64,000 nucleotides of DNA from positions 2,129,206 to 2,193,205 of the forward strand of contig NZ_CP018477.1 in the NCBI RefSeq assembly GCF_002277955.1. Reading direction: 5' to 3'. A program made the translations under genes and the position numbers. Positions 55,626 through 64,000 of the stretch are shown piece after piece. Numbering within the stretch: position 1 is the first letter of the stretch; each line of letters starts with the position of its first letter. A model generated the notes under the pieces. It searched no databases. It saw only the letters and a program-made list of their open reading frames with translations, and was not told the origin of the DNA. The stretch comes from Thermogutta terrifontis. Lineage in GTDB: Bacteria; Planctomycetota; Planctomycetia; Pirellulales; Thermoguttaceae.

Positions 55626-57197
55626 TCATTTGGGGAGGAAATCCTGCACGATTGTCACCTGACGGATCTGGCGACTATCAGGTTCGAAAACGCGAATGGT
55701 GACCTGAACGCCACGGCACGGCGCAGGATAAGGCGGGGGAGCCTCCCATTCTCCGAAATCGTCCACAAGACCGTTGTTGTCGTTATCGAAGCCGTCAGTG
55801 CCCGTATCGGGGCCGTTTGCCCCGTCCTGGTCCAGGCCATCCTTCTCATAATGGATGGACCAGGTATCGTACACGGCAAGGGGGCCCAACTTCGCCTTGG
55901 CGAGCGGGTAGTCGGAAAACGTGGAGAGTGGCCCGATTGCGGGTGACTGGGGACGGTAGGCCAGATCAACGTACGCCCCACCAATCACCGGCTGTTGCGG
56001 CGGCGCTACAAGGTAAGAAAGATCGCCCGGACGAAGTGCCGCTCCGGCGGCGGTGACGGTCACAGGGGCTGTCGGGTCCCAGATCTTCACATCAAACGCA
56101 ATCACATTGGTGAGGACGAGGTCCTCCGATTCGCGATAAAGTTGACCGGCGTTGTTGAGCAGACCGGTCTGTGTGTCAACTTCCTGGAATGGATAAGGAT
56201 TGTTCCAAAAATCGAACGCCCCCATCGGCCCGGAAAGCCGGGTCAGCGTGACTGGCGGCAGAACCCCGCTGCCAAGCCATGCCGTGCCCATGTTAGCCGA
56301 GGCACTTTCCGCAAGGGTGGGAAGCCCCAAAGCCTGCCAACCAGCGATCCGATGGGGATGGAATGGAAACGATGCGACGTTACGAGGGTCTCCCGTCCGA
56401 TGGGCATAACGGTTCTCGGGTTTGGTGAGGTCTCCCAGCGTGGAGAACACCCAGCCTCCCCGGTTCACATCGTAATGGGCAGCAATATCGTAATACCGAC
56501 GGAAGTTTTGGGCGCCGCTGTCACCCGCGGGTACCCACTCCCCCGGATCCAAAATACCGTTCTTGTTAACGTCGCAAAGTTCCATGGCTTTGGGGGCCAC
56601 CAGCCGAACCTGCCTATACAGGCGATTTCCCCGCACGAACCACGCCACTTCGGCTGTATCCGAGTAAATTGTGCTGGGCTGACCATTGATGAGACATCGG
56701 CCGACGAATGGCTCTCCCGTCGAACGCGTGGTAAACATCAGGATGTCGTCGTTGTCGCCAACTGTGGGGTCAGGGAGTGGGTTGCCGTTTCCATCCACAT
56801 CGTCCAAATTAACCGCTACAAGTGGATCGTTGAGCTGCATGATGGGACGGACCTGACCATTTTGCCCTACCGGGCCTTCCGTGTATTCAAAGTAGCCCTC
56901 ATCGTTGGCCGGATCCCGCGGTGGAATGGGGATTACAGTAAGGCCCCGCAAGTCCGATCGCAGTAACTCGGCAGCTGAACGTAAGCGATCGGAGGTTTCC
57001 AGCATTGCACGCGCCTGGTTGATACTCTGCATGACAGACGCGAATACCGCGACCACCGCCCCCAGCATGATGAGTGAGATCGCCGTGGCAAGGAGAATTT
57101 CCACCAGAGTGAATCCGGCACGTCGGAAGCGAGTCATAGCTATCGCACAGCTTTGAAGAGCGTTTTCAGCCGGGCCACGCTTGAAAAGATCGTCCAT
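55626..57197 (-). CDS. Very large pilin-like protein (type IV/GspJ-type N-terminus)
   Basis: A 523-aa protein with a prepilin signal: RRAGFTLVEILLATAIS, cleavage expected after G28, methylatable F29 and E33 (the Glu at +5), then a long hydrophobic helix. The remainder is a large exported domain unlike small pilins of 130-200 aa. It contains Asp/Asn-rich loops resembling EF-hand or dockerin calcium sites: DVNKNGILDPGEW and TDGFDNDNNGLVDD. ATG 57197 is chosen because GGAGG lies 9 nt upstream; ATG 57137, directly before MTRFRRAGF, would give a more usual leader but has no Shine-Dalgarno. No assembly genes are adjacent. Confidence 0.8.
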   Translation of the reverse strand: MDDLFKRGPAENALQSCAIAMTRFRRAGFTLVEILLATAISLIMLGAVVAVFASVMQSINQARAMLETSDRLRSAAELLRSDLRGLTVIPIPPRDPANDEGYFEYTEGPVGQNGQVRPIMQLNDPLVAVNLDDVDGNGNPLPDPTVGDNDDILMFTTRSTGEPFVGRCLINGQPSTIYSDTAEVAWFVRGNRLYRQVRLVAPKAMELCDVNKNGILDPGEWVPAGDSGAQNFRRYYDIAAHYDVNRGGWVFSTLGDLTKPENRYAHRTGDPRNVASFPFHPHRIAGWQALGLPTLAESASANMGTAWLGSGVLPPVTLTRLSGPMGAFDFWNNPYPFQEVDTQTGLLNNAGQLYRESEDLVLTNVIAFDVKIWDPTAPVTVTAAGAALRPGDLSYLVAPPQQPVIGGAYVDLAYRPQSPAIGPLSTFSDYPLAKAKLGPLAVYDTWSIHYEKDGLDQDGANGPDTGTDGFDNDNNGLVDDFGEWEAPPPYPAPCRGVQVTIRVFEPDSRQIRQVTIVQDFLPK

Positions 57198-57403
57198 TGC
57201 AAGGACCTCCATTCACGTCGGTTTTCTCCAACCTCAGCGCTGGCCCGTGATACGTTATCTAATCTCGTGGTAGTTCCGCTTTTTGCCTGGCAATCTAGAC
57301 TGCCGGTCGCACGCGCCCCTCCCCTTTCTAACTATATTCGAATTCCCATGGCGGAGAAAGTCAATGACGGCTCGCTGGAACCTATCGCCACTTTTTGAGA
57401 AAT

Positions 57404-57554: not shown

Positions 57555-57652
57555 GGTGAAGGCTAAAGCCTTCACCGAAAAGCGGCGATAAATCGCCGCA
57601 CTCCATGGAGTGCGGGGCTTTAGCCCCGCTTTCGGCGCGGGACTTCAGTCCC
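57555..57652. repeat. Array of five adjacent perfect palindromes
   Basis: Each has two identical arms around a 2-nt centre or directly abutting: GGTGAAGGCT-AA-AGCCTTCACC (57555-57576), GCGGCGAT-AA-ATCGCCGC (57582-57599), GCACTCC-AT-GGAGTGC (57598-57613), GCGGGGCT-TT-AGCCCCGC (57612-57629) and GGGACT-TC-AGTCCC (57639-57652). Neighbours overlap by a few bases or lie under 10 nt apart. Each could form a hairpin or cruciform. Confidence 0.85.
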
Positions 57653-57806: not shown

Positions 57807-59888
57807 TCAGTATCCGACCAATGCCGGCCAGCGCCGCTCCTGATTCAGGAACACAACCCACAGCATCAATCCGTGAATCACGATGAGGAAAAGGAGATGG
57901 CACAAATCGCCCAGCCAAATATGTGGTCCAAAACCACTGACTTTTGGTCGTTCTACGACCAGAACCGCTGGACGGCACACGAGTGCCAGAGATATACTGT
58001 CCACCAATACTTCGATCCGTTTGAGACGCTCCCGTTTTTCAGACGCCTCTTGAGCCGCCGTGAATGGATAACGCAGGGTCACTATCAGCGGGCGGAAAGG
58101 GCGAGCATCCGTATACTGCAAAATACTGACGCCTGTCGCCGTGCTACTAAAGAGGATCTGGGGGAGGATCAAAATCGGCAACCATGCCACGGCAGCCTCC
58201 TCGCTTCCCACCACAGTCGAGATAACGAATGCCAACCCGAGACCTCCCAGATACGCCAGCCAGAGGCCCCCTAACCAGGCAACCAGGGATCGTTGGGTCA
58301 CCTCGTCTCTCAGATTCTCGGGGAGGACCGAAGGTAAGAGAAGCCTCAACAAGACCAGAAAAAATACGAGTTGTGCCAGCCCAATCAGACCGTACAGCCA
58401 CTTTGCCAATAAATAGCTACCGGGAGCCAGTCCTCCCAATCGATCGCGGATATAAGCCCGGCGGTCTCGCACGAGATCGCGGATCGAATTGTTCATTCCC
58501 AGCCAGCAGGCCACCACAGTTGTGAAAAAGAGCAATCCAAAAATTTTGCCGGGACTGAACTGCGTCAGGGCCACAACCACCGCGAGAATCGCTGGTTGAC
58601 CGATTGTCATCCAGCGCATCCACCTATCCCGCCAAATGCCCAAGGCCGTTCGCTGCGCGACCACCCTGACCGACAAAGGATCGACCTCACGCGTGGGCGG
58701 AATCGCCAACTTGCGTAAGGCCAAGCGACGCGTTCCTGTGTTGGTGCCGAGTTCCTCGATCTCCTCGGGGGACGCGCCGGCAGGAGATCCCTGTCCGTCC
58801 TCATTGGACGATTCTCGCCCGGCTCCGCCCAATGGCTCAAACTCTCCCCGTTCCAGTCGCTCGTAAAGATCGGCAAAATTCCGGCAGCCGAGAGTCGGTA
58901 AAAGAGCGTCAGGCGGTCCGGCGTAGGCTACTCTGCCCTGCCGCTCGAACACGCCGAGGACCAAAACCGAGTCCAAAAGATAGATGTTCTCCATCAGATG
59001 AGTGGTGCAAATCACCGTAGCGCCCTGGCGGGCCACCACCACGAGATTTTCCATCAGCCGGGCCTCATTGGCGGGGTCAAGCCCTGCCGTCGGTTCATCC
59101 AGCAGGAACAGTTCCGGCCGGCGGATCCACTCCATGGCCACGCTCGTCCGCTTTCGCTGGCCGCCGCTCAAATATCGAGCCAACTTCTCGGCGTGCTCCT
59201 TCAAACCGAAGAGTTCCAGGGCCGCCTCCACACGACGCTGCCGCTCCGGTGCAGGTAGCTTGTCGGCCAAACGCAGCTCGCAAGTTAGGGCTATGTTTTC
59301 GCGCACCGTCAGCAAGGGATTAACGACATCGTCCTGCGGAATAAAAGCAAGGCGGCGCCGATAACTGTCGATATCCTTCCAGACATCGGGCAGGTCCCCG
59401 CAGGCGATGATCCCGGAGCTCGGCGGCCGGATCCCGCCCAGCGTCCGCAAAAGCATCGTCTTCCCGGCTCCACTTGGCCCCAAAATCCCCGCGACCTGTC
59501 CCGACGCCAACGACCATCTCCAACCGCCAAAACTCACCAGCACCCGGTTTGCGACTTTCACCTCCAAACCTCTGACGGACAGCCCCGCGGATTCCGCCGG
59601 CACCAAACGTAAACCGCTTTCCTCCACGGCATACGTCACCACCTCCCCAAATCGGACGCGATCCCCAGGCCTGAGTTGCCGTTCCCGAATTCGCAAACCG
59701 TTCACAAATGTCCCAAACCGGCTCTCCAGGTCGCGGACAAGCAATCGGCCATCCCGCACTTCAAGCACGGCGTGTTGCCGCGAGACTGTCGGTTCGGTGA
59801 GACAGAGATCCGCCTGAGTTCCGCGACCAACCTGAAGCGGAAGACCACTCAGTGGCACAAAGCCGGGATTCGGTTCCAGCTTCGACAT
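57807..59888 (-). CDS. ABC transporter half-molecule with N-terminal FHA domain
   Basis: A 693-aa fusion: FHA domain (about 15-95), ABC ATPase (about 105-330), linker, and a six-segment ABC-2-type permease (about 480-680). FHA phosphothreonine contacts are visible: VGRG (R22), SRQH (36-39) and FVNG (N63). The ATPase has Walker A GPSGAGKT (137-144), signature LSGGQRKR (240-247) and Walker B LFLLDEPTAG (260-269). The permease-last order resembles ABCG-type exporters, which dimerise. ATG 59888 follows GAGGGA by 5 nt and only 8 nt after the upstream stop, suggesting translational coupling. FHA binding of a phosphorylated partner made by the kinase two genes upstream is inferred. Confidence 0.88.
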   Translation of the reverse strand: MSKLEPNPGFVPLSGLPLQVGRGTQADLCLTEPTVSRQHAVLEVRDGRLLVRDLESRFGTFVNGLRIRERQLRPGDRVRFGEVVTYAVEESGLRLVPAESAGLSVRGLEVKVANRVLVSFGGWRWSLASGQVAGILGPSGAGKTMLLRTLGGIRPPSSGIIACGDLPDVWKDIDSYRRRLAFIPQDDVVNPLLTVRENIALTCELRLADKLPAPERQRRVEAALELFGLKEHAEKLARYLSGGQRKRTSVAMEWIRRPELFLLDEPTAGLDPANEARLMENLVVVARQGATVICTTHLMENIYLLDSVLVLGVFERQGRVAYAGPPDALLPTLGCRNFADLYERLERGEFEPLGGAGRESSNEDGQGSPAGASPEEIEELGTNTGTRRLALRKLAIPPTREVDPLSVRVVAQRTALGIWRDRWMRWMTIGQPAILAVVVALTQFSPGKIFGLLFFTTVVACWLGMNNSIRDLVRDRRAYIRDRLGGLAPGSYLLAKWLYGLIGLAQLVFFLVLLRLLLPSVLPENLRDEVTQRSLVAWLGGLWLAYLGGLGLAFVISTVVGSEEAAVAWLPILILPQILFSSTATGVSILQYTDARPFRPLIVTLRYPFTAAQEASEKRERLKRIEVLVDSISLALVCRPAVLVVERPKVSGFGPHIWLGDLCHLLFLIVIHGLMLWVVFLNQERRWPALVGY

Positions 59889-59896
59889 GGCTTCCC

Positions 59897-61126
59897 TCAA
59901 GGCGTGTTGATGATTGTGCAATGGTAAGTCAATCTCACTTCGGGACTGGTCTCAAACCGAGTTTCGAACAACAGGTGATCCCGGGAAGCCTCCTCCATCG
60001 TTCCGGTCGCCTGTAATTTCGCCGATTCAATGTGGCCTTTTGTGATGTTGTATTTAAGCTCACCACGCGGGGTAAGGCTGGCCAGCCGGGTACGGCTGCT
60101 GTCGGTTGCGTCAACAGTGATCGATCCCGAATAGCAGCGAAGCAAGGCGTACCTCTCGCCGTTTTCCTGAAAATCCTTCTCCCGCCGAATACTCACCTTG
60201 CCCCGCGGTGTACCTCGCCATGATGGCGGCAGAAAATCACTGAAGGCTCTTCCGTCCACATCCCACACGTCGCCCGGTTGGCTCTTCATATCGGGCAGCA
60301 AATACGCATCGGTGACCACGGCCGAGGCCATTAGCAAATCTCGTTCCTCTTCTGTCAACTCACAATCCACAGGCTCCAGCTCAACCACACCTTGACCATC
60401 AACAAAGGTGATGCGGACCTTCTTCCCTTTCAGTGAATCCACCGCGGCCGTCACCTTTGTGTTCGCTTGGTCCAGAAGATACTCGGTCCCCGCCTGGTAA
60501 CCCACACAGATCCCTTGAATGACTGCTGGCGCGAGTTGCGACGCGCCACCTCCAGTAACTGTTGCATCCAAAAGTGCGACCAACGCTCCCAGGAGCAGGG
60601 ATCCCGGTTCCGTGGGGACAAACCGGACTTCGACCTGACTGGCAACCTTCACAGCCGCGGCTTCCAAAATGTGCCGCAATTCGACGACGCGATGGCCATC
60701 GTTCTTCTCGATTGTTCGCCGCATTCTCATTTCGGCACGATACGCCACATGAATTGTCCGCTGAAAACCCCATTGCTTGTCGCGGGCGGGAGCGGTGATC
60801 TCTGCCGTCGTGATTACCTCGTACGTCTTCCCCTCCTGTAACACGTCGCGGATCCGGTCAGGAGAGCCAACTGTCGGCGGCGGCGCTGGCGCCTCGGAGG
60901 GACGCGGCACCTTTTCCCCCGGCTTTGCTATCGGCGTGTTGCCGCCGCTCGGCCCTCGCTGTGTGTTTTGCTTCTCACCGTGCGGCCACAACACGACCAC
61001 CAAGATCACCAGCAACACGATCAGGATCGCCCCCAGTAATGCCTTGGTCACGGCGTCTGCGGCCCCTTTTCGTGAACCTCTTCTTTGGTCGTACCTTCGT
61101 TGCCCAGGGATGCGCTCTGTTTTCAT
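59897..61126 (-). CDS. Single-pass membrane protein of unknown function
   Basis: A 409-aa protein: a short basic N-terminus (TERIPGQRRYDQRRGSRKG), one membrane segment (ALLGAILIVLLVILVVVLW, about 29-47), a Pro-rich linker and a soluble extracytoplasmic domain of about 330 residues with alternating beta segments. The domain is not recognised; its central part, around TEPGSLLLGALVALLDAT, is mildly hydrophobic. It sits between the kinase-WD40 gene (106 nt upstream) and the FHA-ABC gene (8 nt downstream) and may be a sensor or the phosphorylated partner, by context only. ATG 61126 has AAGGA about 8 nt upstream; an ATG three codons earlier is too close. Confidence 0.72.
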   Translation of the reverse strand: MKTERIPGQRRYDQRRGSRKGAADAVTKALLGAILIVLLVILVVVLWPHGEKQNTQRGPSGGNTPIAKPGEKVPRPSEAPAPPPTVGSPDRIRDVLQEGKTYEVITTAEITAPARDKQWGFQRTIHVAYRAEMRMRRTIEKNDGHRVVELRHILEAAAVKVASQVEVRFVPTEPGSLLLGALVALLDATVTGGGASQLAPAVIQGICVGYQAGTEYLLDQANTKVTAAVDSLKGKKVRITFVDGQGVVELEPVDCELTEEERDLLMASAVVTDAYLLPDMKSQPGDVWDVDGRAFSDFLPPSWRGTPRGKVSIRREKDFQENGERYALLRCYSGSITVDATDSSRTRLASLTPRGELKYNITKGHIESAKLQATGTMEEASRDHLLFETRFETSPEVRLTYHCTIINTP

Positions 61127-61232
61127 GCCGTTCATCCTTTTTTCTGTGTCTGACCTTTTTTCTCATCTACCGCGCAATCCCATTCGCAGCCAAAGCGGTT
61201 ACGGTGGGTTTGCGCTCCACTTGATCCAGCTT

Positions 61233-64000
61233 CTAACCGCCCAGCTTAACCCGAACCAAGTCCGGCCTGTGGTAACGCCGGATGACCTCCTCCATCGGCA
61301 AATCCTGGCCCGTCACAGGGTCATAATAGGTCACGGGCAACTCAATCGGGTCGATGATGTCCGTATCGAAATACCCCTCCGGCGTCAGGACCAGCCAGTG
61401 GCCGTCGGTGAACCCATAAAACCGGCACAGCTCCCGCCCCGTGGCGACATCCCACAGCCGGGCCGTGCCATCCTGCGAACCGGTGAGAATCTGCCGCCCA
61501 TCCGGACGGAAGGCCACAGACGAGACCATGTCAGTGTGGCCTTCAAACCGCCGCAACTCATGCCCTGTCGTGACATCCCACAGCCGGGCTGTGTTGTCCG
61601 GGGCTACTCCAACGAAATGACCGGCCCCCGTGAGGACCTGCCGACCATCCGGACTGAAGGCCACAGGCCAGACCGCGTCAGTGTGCCCTTCGAACCGCCG
61701 CAATTCTTTCCCCGTGGCCGCATCCCACAGCCGGGCCGTATTGTCCCGCGACCCCGTGAGGACCTGCCGCCCGTCCGGACTGAAGGCCACGGACGTGACC
61801 GGGTCAGTGTGGCCTTCGAACCGCCGCAATTCTTTCCCCGTGGCCGCATCCCACAGCCGGGCCGTATTGTCACCCGACCCCGTGAGGACCTGCCGCCCGT
61901 CCGGACTGAAGGCCACGGACAAGACCGGCAAAATGTGCCCTTCGAACCGCCGCAATTCTTCCCCCGTGGCGGCATCCCACAGCCGGGCCGTATTGTCCCG
62001 CGACCCCGTGAGGACCTGCCGACCGTCCGGACTGAAGGCCACGGAAGTGACCCAGTCAGTGTGGCCTTCGAACCGCCGCAATTCTTTCCCCGTGGCCGCA
62101 TCCCACAGCCGGGCCGTCTTGTCCGCCGACCCCGTGAGGACCTGCCGCCCGTCCGGACTGAAGGCCACGGACAAGACCGGCAAAATGTGCCCTTCGAACC
62201 GCCGCAATTCTTTCCCCGTGGCCGCATCCCACAGCCGGGCCGTCTTGTCCGCCGACCCCGTGAGGACCTGCCGCCCGTCCGGACTGACGGCCACGGACAA
62301 GACCGCCTCAGTGTGCCCTTCGAAGCGCCGCAATTCTTTCCCCGTGGCCGCATCCCACAGCCGGGCCGTATTGTCACCCGACCCCGTGAGGACCTGCCGC
62401 CCGTCCGGACTGAAGGCCACGGACGTGACCGGGTCAGTGTGGCCTTCGAACCGCCGCAACTCCTGCCCCGTGGCCGCATCCCATAGCCGGGCCGTATTAT
62501 CGGAGGTTCGTTCAAAAGGATTACCGGACCCCGTGAGGACCTGCCGCCCGTCCGGACTAAAGGCCACGGACAAAACCCAACCGGTGTGGCCTTCGAACTG
62601 CCGCAATTCTTTCCCCGTGGCCGCATCCCACACCCGGGCCGTGCCATCCCACGACCCCGTGAGGACCTGCCGACCGTTCGGACTGAAGGCCACGGACGTG
62701 ACATACCCTGAGCTTGTGGTGACAACCACCCTTGGAAAAGAAGGTGATGTGGGCCCAACTGCCGGGGGCCTATCAGAAGTTAAGGCCACGTCCCCCTTAA
62801 CGCCAAAAGGCGTCGTCGGGCCAACTTCCGGCGGCGTATCAGGTGTATAGGGCATATCCCTGCTGGGGATGCGTCCTGACGGAGGCCTTTTTGTCACAAC
62901 GAGCACGACGCCCACAAGGACCAAAACACCCAGTCCAACTGCAATGACTGCATAGAGGCCCGACCGGCGAGATTCTTGGGCAATCGCTTCATTCGGTACA
63001 GGAATCCAGTGCGTGCCTGAAGGTGAAAGTGATGGCATGGCACTGTGTTTGACAGGCAAATCGGGGAGCGACGTGGTGCCCCCAGGACGTGTTGCCTGAG
63101 CTGAGCTGGAGGCAGATTCCTCCTGGCGGTCGGCCGCTGTGAAAACGAATTTCGGCACCAGAGGTGGCGTGGGCGGGGAATGAGGACTCGCCGGACGGTC
63201 GTCTGCCTGTGGGCCAGGAGTCTCCTCTGCCGCGTCCGCTGGTCTTATCAGTCCGTTCTCCAGGAGGGCCTGCCGCAGACTCGCCACCGAGTCGAAACGC
63301 CGCTCCGGCCAGGGCTCCAGCAGGCGCTCCAGAATCCGATCAAACGCCGCCGGCACAGTACGGTTCATCTGAGAGGGGGCCTGCCAGCGACCCGTCGGCA
63401 ACCGACCTGTCAACAGTTCGTAGAACGTGACCCCCAGGGCATATAAATCAGCTCGCTGGTCCACACTTTCCGGGTTCTCCCATTGCTCAGGCGCCATGTA
63501 ATGGTAGGTGCCCAGGGCTGCACCCGTCGCCGTCAAAGAGGCCGTCTCCTGGCCCAATCGCCGGACGATTCCCAAATCCCCGACCACCGCGCGACTGGCC
63601 CCATCCAGCAAGATGTTGGAAGGCTTCAGGTCTCGATGCACGAGGCCCAACTGATGCAGGACCTCCAACCCCGCCATCACATCCAAAAACCATCGCAAGG
63701 CGACCTCAAAATGGCAGACCTGCTTTTGCCGCCTCAACTCGTCCAGCACCGCACGCAAACTGCCTTGCGCCATGAGCGGCGTCAGAACACAGGGCAACCC
63801 CTTCCACCGCCCCTGCCCGAGCCGCCGCAAGACCCGAGGATGCCGCACCTGACGGAGGATTTCCGACTCGCGCTTGAAGCGTTGCAGGGCCGCATCGTCG
63901 TTCAGTAAATGCGGCATCAAAATCTTGATCGCCACCGGTTCGCTCTGGCCATCCACCTGGCCCTCGAACACCCACGTCATTCCGCCCTGACCCACCAACC
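61233..64000 (-). CDS. Ser/Thr protein kinase-WD40 transmembrane protein, N-terminus cut by window edge
   Basis: At least 921 aa, with the N-terminus outside the window. The Hanks-type kinase domain starts inside its glycine loop (LVGQGG) and runs to about residue 250: VAIKI (K25), HRDLKPSN (D123), DLG in place of DFG (141-143), MAPEQW and DQRADLYALGVTFYELLTGRLP. A Pro-rich linker leads to one membrane helix (about 347-368), so the C-terminal part is extracytoplasmic. That part has ten WD40 repeats of 42 residues (about 430-860), near-identical to one another, and ends with HWLVLTPEGYFD, a motif also seen after bacterial WD40 domains. First gene of the kinase-membrane protein-FHA/ABC series. 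Confidence 0.9.
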   Translation of the reverse strand, partial: LVGQGGMTWVFEGQVDGQSEPVAIKILMPHLLNDDAALQRFKRESEILRQVRHPRVLRRLGQGRWKGLPCVLTPLMAQGSLRAVLDELRRQKQVCHFEVALRWFLDVMAGLEVLHQLGLVHRDLKPSNILLDGASRAVVGDLGIVRRLGQETASLTATGAALGTYHYMAPEQWENPESVDQRADLYALGVTFYELLTGRLPTGRWQAPSQMNRTVPAAFDRILERLLEPWPERRFDSVASLRQALLENGLIRPADAAEETPGPQADDRPASPHSPPTPPLVPKFVFTAADRQEESASSSAQATRPGGTTSLPDLPVKHSAMPSLSPSGTHWIPVPNEAIAQESRRSGLYAVIAVGLGVLVLVGVVLVVTKRPPSGRIPSRDMPYTPDTPPEVGPTTPFGVKGDVALTSDRPPAVGPTSPSFPRVVVTTSSGYVTSVAFSPNGRQVLTGSWDGTARVWDAATGKELRQFEGHTGWVLSVAFSPDGRQVLTGSGNPFERTSDNTARLWDAATGQELRRFEGHTDPVTSVAFSPDGRQVLTGSGDNTARLWDAATGKELRRFEGHTEAVLSVAVSPDGRQVLTGSADKTARLWDAATGKELRRFEGHILPVLSVAFSPDGRQVLTGSADKTARLWDAATGKELRRFEGHTDWVTSVAFSPDGRQVLTGSRDNTARLWDAATGEELRRFEGHILPVLSVAFSPDGRQVLTGSGDNTARLWDAATGKELRRFEGHTDPVTSVAFSPDGRQVLTGSRDNTARLWDAATGKELRRFEGHTDAVWPVAFSPDGRQVLTGAGHFVGVAPDNTARLWDVTTGHELRRFEGHTDMVSSVAFRPDGRQILTGSQDGTARLWDVATGRELCRFYGFTDGHWLVLTPEGYFDTDIIDPIELPVTYYDPVTGQDLPMEEVIRRYHRPDLVRVKLGG
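61421..62702 (-). repeat. Tandem 126-bp WD40 repeats at DNA level
   Basis: Ten in-register copies of a 126-bp unit encode the WD40 repeats; for example, GACCTGCCGCCCGTCCGG starts at 61761 and again at 61887, exactly 126 bp apart. Copies 2 and 9 carry small in-frame insertions. The high identity keeps several other frames open, which explains long spurious frames on both strands. Confidence 0.85.

Follow-up and report, generated by a model that had tools for sequence, protein, structure and literature searches.

The window analyzed here is a 64,000-nt stretch of the genome of Thermogutta terrifontis (order Pirellulales; one contig of 4,810,751 bases). Its right end carries three minus-strand genes (Table 1), which were identified by open reading frames (ORFs) and Pfam as a Ser/Thr kinase, a middle protein with the working name MID, and an ATP-binding cassette (ABC) exporter fused to an FHA domain. 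An initial annotation had described the three same-strand genes, the FHA domain at the N-terminus of the ABC protein and a spacing of 8 nt before its gene, and had read the cluster as a phospho-switched exporter. The descriptive part was correct: all three genes are real, the exporter ATG lies 8 nt past the MID stop, and the Pfam scores of the exporter are 68.6 bits for FHA, 100.3 for ABC_tran and 45.3 for ABC2_membrane. Kinase and MID genes are separated by 97 nt.

Table 1. Features of the kinase–MID–exporter cluster in the window.
Feature	Position	Strand	Description
Ser/Thr kinase, part in the window	61233..64000	-	Gene cut by the window edge
Kinase domain	63354..64000	-	Residues 198–414, the first residue just beyond the window; Pkinase 119 bits; VAIK, HRD, DLG, APE
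Activation-loop T-A-T	63525..63533	-	T355/T357, where mycobacterial kinases have their two activation-loop threonines
Kinase transmembrane segment	62895..62951	-	Residues 549–567; single, between kinase and WD40; hydropathy
Ten WD40 repeats	61416..62738	-	C-terminal to the transmembrane segment; repeat starts at residues 635–1027; Pfam
MID	59897..61135	-	412 aa; N-terminal transmembrane helix ~25–50, linker, exported domain modelled as a helix-containing beta barrel
FHA-fused ABC exporter	57807..59888	-	693 aa, ATG at 59888; FHA, nucleotide-binding domain and ABC-2 membrane domain on a single chain
Exporter FHA domain	59646..59831	-	Residues 20–81; Pfam
ABC nucleotide-binding domain	59085..59519	-	Residues 124–268; Walker A GPSGAGKT, signature LSGGQ, Walker B LFLLDEP
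ABC-2 type membrane domain	58131..58670	-	Matched residues 407–586; Pfam, hydropathy
Terminator-like hairpin	57582..57599	-	~210 nt past the ABC stop; weak, consensus only

The three proteins of the cluster

The exporter FHA domain had all of the core residues (G21, R22, S36, H39, N63, and G64); five conserved core residues are given for phosphothreonine-binding FHA domains (PMC4238996). Its best PDB match was the FHA-1 domain of Rv1747 (6cah, E 7.9e-8). For the whole exporter, the best PDB matches were lipid-transporting ABCA proteins, via its ATPase part, and a Thr/Ser-rich linker occupies residues 355–412. The genome contained 12 FHA places, two of which are the exporter and the kinase of the window. 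The other ten carried no ABC signature, and the other FHA proteins included histidine-kinase-like, PP2C/GAF-like, sigma-54-activator-like, and secretion-ATPase-like ones by sequence.

The kinase ORF runs 595 nt past the window (L009:7439-10801, L009 being the locus of the window itself) and encodes 1120 aa from a GTG, with an ATG 22 codons in. In order, the protein comprises an FHA domain (PF00498, 35.3 bits), a four-cysteine zinc ribbon read by eye, the Ser/Thr kinase, a Thr/Ser/Pro-rich linker, one transmembrane segment, and the WD40 repeats. By eye, the core of this FHA domain was altered from Ser to Asp (VDRHHA) and from Asn-Gly to Gly-Gly, so it did not have the full set of core residues expected for phosphothreonine binding. 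The transmembrane kinase with WD40 of the initial annotation was found in its essentials (Pkinase, one transmembrane segment, WD40 repeats); "a WD40 propeller" was a loose term since there are ten repeats, and the N-terminal FHA domain and ribbon, beyond the window edge, come in addition. The WD40 DNA is near-identical, with a 126-bp unit in 6.9 copies and 90% matches at 61626-62498, a sign of recent amplification. The relative in G031 had far fewer WD40 repeats together with a frame break, which may reflect a collapsed assembly.

WD40 kinases of such topology occur across Planctomycetota (PMC11032199), with a cytosolic kinase, a single transmembrane segment and a WD40 array that is predicted to be periplasmic. 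The window kinase likewise had a Pkinase match over the cut-off with catalytic motifs, and a single transmembrane segment before the C-terminal WD40 array, a topology that is predicted. Compared with those kinases, it adds the N-terminal FHA domain, the zinc ribbon and the genetic link to MID and the FHA-ABC exporter; the term "ABC transporter" does not occur in the main text of that article.

MID gave no match over the cut-off in Pfam or NCBIfam, and none in PADLOC. DUF5518 was rejected, as its match (E 0.0041, 17.7 bits) was under the cut-off of 27. Hydropathy showed one strong transmembrane segment (32–50) and a weak second peak (180–198), which two structure models (pLDDT 75.7, then 84.4) both put in a helix of the exported domain. 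MID agreed with its earlier description as an unrecognised single-pass protein. Fold searches with the two models returned barrels in general; the top structural matches included apoB and lipovitellin barrels, almost level with outer-membrane barrels (top Z 12.0 for apoB, root-mean-square deviation 5.7, 225 aligned; outer-membrane barrels next, 11.1), and Foldseek TM-scores were at most 0.39 among the matches listed. Because lipid-transfer and outer-membrane barrels were nearly tied, no fold family is claimed for MID. With the first model, LmcA of M. smegmatis was the 50th match (target TM 0.30).

Conservation of the gene set

Relatives were sought with MID because it is the least common part of the cluster. 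At the first threshold, 12 of the 101 genomes of the family matched. Across the phylum, MID was found in at least 7 of 392 genomes, a lower bound since few candidates were scored per genome. Overall, 36 Pirellulales genomes had a MID match, and 35 neighbourhoods were examined, with G828 (a 117-nt MID fragment) left out. The ABC gene was the next same-strand gene after MID in 25 of the 35, and 22 of these 25 loci had a kinase-like gene beside MID or ABC. The three without it were G279, with none in an 18-kb stretch, and two loci at contig ends, in G057 and, with broken copies, in G066. The order was kinase-MID-ABC in the window, in G031 and in the pseudokinase loci described below. It was MID-ABC-kinase in G773 (locus L089) and in G073, G075, and G088 (whose loci include L031, L032, and L047), and the membership was kept. 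The adjacency of these genes is more than chance, for the set recurs in distant relatives.

Two of the loci without a kinase deserve mention. In G066 (L028), stops and frame breaks were seen in both MID and FHA-ABC, so either the module is decaying there or the sequence is of poor quality. In G279 (L048), a reverse transcriptase gene (L048:6529-7923; RVT_1, 57.2 bits) lies upstream of MID-ABC at the place expected for the kinase, possibly through insertion of a group II intron.

The six genomes of one genus group (L023-L027 and L100) had MID alone, with no ABC or kinase on the stretches covered, and in four of them (L023, L025, L026, and L027) a Rex-like redox regulator gene follows MID. These loci suggest that MID can function independently. 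Outside Pirellulales, two loci of G381, which belongs to another planctomycete family, had MID homologs beside giant Ser/Thr kinases of 1440 and 1654 aa (L068, with one gene between, and L071) and no ABC. In G372, a weak MID match was divergent from a kinase. Neither kinase nor ABC was found beside the MID matches of G356, G452, and G654.

In the converse search, the ABC proteins of the window's clade were compared with 296 genomes of the order, and ten genomes reached E 1e-70 or better. G000, G031, and G279 scored >1000 bits by construction, as they are rows of the query, and no other genome exceeded 333 bits; the 296 genomes thus showed no additional close ABC lacking MID. MID was present in five of the ten (G000, G031, G279, G073, and G088). 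Six loci under the score gap (L114-L119) had no MID match. A kinase beside FHA-ABC was found in L115 and L119, which shows that the two are also paired in loci without MID. No kinase match was obtained with the profiles in L116, L117, and L118 (the Pfam scan covered L116 and L117). In L114 (G015, 333 bits), only part of a transporter is present, close to the end of a contig; it may be a fragmentary relative that lacks MID.

Kinase and FHA states in the relatives

The kinases beside MID and ABC fell into different states. Class I kinases (L009, L022, and L089, in the window, G031, and G773) had a glycine-rich loop, VAIK/VALK, HRD, DLG, APE, and TxT. The kinases of G073, G075, and G088 had the Lys, HG(D/N), DWD, and (A/S)PE. 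In 13 other upstream proteins, here called pseudokinases, the Lys was replaced or the N-lobe was missing, and the DFG position was lost in 12 of the 13. Two alignments of pseudokinase proteins matched over 517 columns with 99.7% probability, covering the kinase-like region and the C-terminal part; therefore, the proteins without a Pfam kinase match also belong with the other pseudokinases.

The FHA domain of the exporter followed the state of the kinase. Beside the kinases classed as active, 6/6 exporters had all six FHA core residues (Gly, Arg, Ser, His, Asn, and Gly), the first stretch being scored in the three exporters with two FHA stretches. Beside the inspected pseudokinases, the full core was found in 0/11 exporters, and in 0/17 rows of that clade overall. 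The 11 genomes leave out L087 and L090 (no ABC), and L054, L088, L092, L093, and L098 (kinase motifs outside the inspected set), and the 17 rows are all ABC rows of the pseudokinase clade, including L030 (no kinase on the contig). L048, with no kinase, is outside the 6/6, and the broken L028 is in no residue count. Pfam FHA scores were 52.7–68.6 bits in the six active genomes; in the pseudokinase clade, none was listed in seven rows, and ten rows had 16.7–51.1 bits. The ATPase part of the exporters was kept, with Walker A and B in 24/24 rows and the SGG signature pattern in 21/24. The activation-loop TxT was present in 5/6 active genomes and in 0/13 pseudokinases. This joint loss of catalytic residues in the kinase and of the phosphothreonine pocket in the exporter suggests, at the level of residues, that the kinase may switch the exporter.

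The sensor part varied as well. In G773 (L089:11354-16875), two tandem kinases follow MID-ABC with a common front part and swapped sensors, and there is the start of a third copy. The front part comprises FHA (19.5 bits, just under the cut-off), ribbon, and kinase; in place of the WD40 part, one kinase has an FGE-sulfatase domain and the second has membrane segments and TPR. WD40 is thus one input among several, and the idea of the initial annotation that an outside ligand controls the system became weak, since the WD40 part is not conserved.

An additional gene usually occurred in the pseudokinase loci. It encodes an alpha/beta hydrolase with an (A/G/S)HS(L/M)GG elbow and was found in 14 loci, as eight separate genes and six fusions to the ABC C-terminus, while 27 further neighbourhoods that were scanned had none. 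Through the fusions, the hydrolase is linked to the exporter. Pfam names were PGAP1-like, DUF676, and related esterases/lipases. A signal-like N-terminus was plain in several of the separate genes, and the listed ORF start was uncertain in others; if its membrane side is conserved, the hydrolase would act in the periplasm. Because of the hydrolase, the ABCA matches of the exporter and the barrel model of MID, our best guess from sequences and models is that the cargo may be a lipid or an acyl ester.

Proposed mechanism, counterparts and alternatives

Experimental knowledge of FHA-fused ABC exporters controlled by a Ser/Thr kinase comes from mycobacteria. There, PknF phosphorylates Rv1747 in vitro, and the yeast two-hybrid assay requires both FHA domains of Rv1747 (PMC3908365); condensation of Rv1747 is promoted by its phosphorylation (PMC9312465). 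As in the cluster of T. terrifontis, a Ser/Thr kinase gene lies near an ABC exporter with an N-terminal FHA domain, and the nucleotide-binding and membrane domains are on one chain (PMC3908365, PMC9312465). In PknQ/MupFHA, the FHA domain docks on the activation loop of the kinase and needs a conserved Arg and Ser (PMC4238996). The residues of the window kinase and of the exporter FHA domain appear compatible with an interaction of the PknF-Rv1747 type. From the conserved linkage, the joint states of kinase and FHA, and this analogy, we lean, by somewhat more than an even balance, towards a phospho-switched ABC exporter module that would work like PknF-Rv1747 with an added periplasmic partner.

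In this mechanism, the membrane kinase would autophosphorylate its activation loop, and the exporter FHA domain would dock on the phosphorylated loop, for which T355/T357 may be the docking site. Alternatively, the FHA domain might dock on phosphothreonines of the exporter's own Thr/Ser-rich linker, once these were marked by the kinase. Docking would then set the transport activity or the clustering of the exporter. MID, anchored in the same membrane and reaching into the periplasm, could serve as cargo acceptor or conduit for the exporter.

The cluster also differs from its counterparts. The window exporter has one matched FHA stretch, whereas Rv1747 has two, and MID intervenes between the genes, whereas in the two-gene operon the kinase is directly upstream of the ABC gene; therefore, we did not file the cluster as a member of PknF-Rv1747. 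In addition, the window kinase bears its own FHA domain, zinc ribbon, and WD40, and the relatives show a form with pseudokinase and hydrolase. Within Pirellulales, L115 and L119 resemble the window in having a Ser/Thr kinase beside an ABC protein with several FHA stretches, three in L115 and two in L119. However, in L115 (L115:4637-9991, G104) the kinase carries a fused HSP70-like domain and is transcribed divergently from ABC, and in L119 a transmembrane protein without a MID match follows ABC. The earlier remark that no described system with this exact set was known holds for the three genes as a set, for which no paper was found in the literature searched (most subscription journals and preprints lay outside its scope); it does not hold for the kinase/FHA-ABC exporter operon, with PknF-Rv1747 known and its phosphorylation tested. 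The logic of kinase and FHA exporter is thus already known; that literature gave no description of the MID family, of the module with its three parts, of its extension by the hydrolase, or of the joint decay.

A number of observations weigh against the phospho-switched exporter. On the ABC tree, the two states lie on opposite sides of one well-supported split, and the most decayed group is nested in the decayed side; therefore, the agreement of kinase and FHA amounts to one or two events, and many independent events are ruled out by the tree. Kinase and FHA were both degenerate in 11 of the 17 genomes where both were inspected, so the phospho-switch cannot be called the module's constant core. 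Five of the 13 pseudokinases keep the HGD Asp, and their inactivity is therefore a prediction. The classes have further exceptions: the L031 kinase (G075) was classed as active with HGN instead of HRD, lacking the Asp; the L022 kinase is broken by a frameshift or an assembly fault; L101 has an FHA match of 51.1 bits beside a predicted pseudokinase; and G279 has an intact FHA domain with no kinase in its 18-kb stretch. Only 10 of the 22 kinase-like neighbours were over the Pfam Pkinase cut-off, and the rest were recognized by profiles partly built from the same loci, G757 with just 30 bits. The module is also patchy. MID profile matches were found in 30 of 396 Pirellulales genomes and in none of the three other genomes of the genus, and five of the ten genomes of the ABC-first search had no MID. 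Separation of the genes in relatives, which had been named as a refuting observation, occurs in part: 10 of the 35 MID loci lack ABC, namely all six examined genomes of the genus group with MID alone, and G058, G234, G726, and G730, the last with its MID match outside any listed ORF. Finally, PknQ docking uses loop residues other than the TxT pair (PMC4238996). Taken for the claim of the initial annotation, the writer/reader pair found support in genes that stay together despite changes of order and in catalytic and pocket residues that are kept or lost jointly; the double degeneration in the 11 genomes speaks against a general switch.

Docking without gating is a rather unlikely alternative, in which the kinase and its dead relatives would mainly be a membrane scaffold holding MID and ABC, and surviving phosphorylation would only recruit or localise the transporter. 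The predicted pseudokinase versions retain the neighbourhood and align with each other over the 517 columns, and the altered FHA core of the window kinase fits a structural use. However, the class I kinases keep their catalytic motifs and TxT, and the FHA pocket was lost only in the clade with catalytic loss, as expected if phosphate matters. Less probable still are separate circuits, where the kinase would target MID or another protein, the exporter FHA would read another kinase, and the cluster would be co-regulated only. They would explain MID next to Ser/Thr kinases without ABC in G381, MID beside predicted pseudokinases without ABC in G726 and G234, and the FHA domain of G279. Against them, a kinase-like gene adjoins nearly all MID-ABC loci and its state follows that of FHA where both were inspected, and the predicted cytosolic tail of MID is short, with threonines that are not shared in the alignment. 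A purely accidental grouping of unrelated genes would agree with the patchy presence, the absence of MID from the congeners and the transposase-like remnant just upstream, but it has a negligible probability; it was ruled out because the set recurs across several families of Pirellulales, in altered gene orders and with genes that overlap or lie close together.

A conflict or defence device, in which the kinase would sense attack and ABC and MID would be effectors or envelope guards, seems highly improbable. The kinases next to MID-ABC in G073, G075, and G088 carry a long extension. It is GTPase-like in L031 (DO-GTPase1, E 4.3e-10, over the Pfam cut-off), gave DO-GTPase2 at just E 0.051 in L047, and had no such match listed in L032. 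Genes with a YGHDG- or WGHNG-type start follow the kinase in all three (L031, L032/L046, and L047); we take them to resemble GAP1, although Pfam gave no GAP1 match for the three scanned. DO-GTPase/GAP1 systems are predicted conflict systems (PMC7159879), and the one MID-ABC relative beside a kinase with a DO-GTPase part over the cut-off is L031. By eye, no DO-GTPase or GAP1-like gene lies beside the window cluster, and the window kinase has no DO-GTPase domain among the best 25 of 60 Pfam rows, its 1120 aa being taken by FHA, ribbon, kinase, linker, transmembrane segment, and WD40. The PADLOC library, which has no cut-offs, matched PD-T4-6 on the window kinase domain (E 9.8e-58) and mad3 on the ATPase part of ABC (2.8e-21), and the patchy distribution would also suit defence. 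However, such matches on a kinase domain and on short ATPase stretches are given by any Ser/Thr kinase or ABC ATPase, and most of the listed kinase matches span the kinase domain only (best 196–451).

A wider form of the phospho-switched reading can be put forward tentatively, as a possibility with the odds against it. The cluster would represent an undescribed planctomycete family for envelope export, composed of (pseudo)kinase, MID barrel, ABC and, in part, a periplasmic lipase-like hydrolase, with a lipid or acyl-ester cargo. Kinase and FHA would be an exchangeable gate: phosphorylation would switch it in the Thermogutta-type clade, and the sister clade (families f3, f7, f16, and f19 of Pirellulales) would use a pseudokinase gate that does without phosphate and would have gained the hydrolase, in part as a fusion to the exporter. 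With a conserved module in another lineage far from mycobacteria, which has one more periplasmic partner and natural members with joint decay, the coupling of writer and reader would become testable by comparison. One of the many planctomycete sensor kinases is also tied to a candidate output, and the source, a non-pathogenic thermophile, suits biochemistry of the module.

Some minor features flank the cluster. The hairpin past the ABC stop is weak evidence of a terminator, as 16 such sites were found where 9.1 were expected. The next same-strand gene downstream (55626-57212) has a prepilin-type N-terminal methylation motif and is improbable as a part of the module because of the 594-nt gap after ABC. 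Directly upstream of the kinase, outside the window (L009:10641-11525, or 64435-65319 in window numbering), lies the transposase-like remnant, IS630-like by eye, with a homeodomain-like HTH_32 match of 30.1 bits that is under the cut-off. This remnant may account for the patchy presence of the module.

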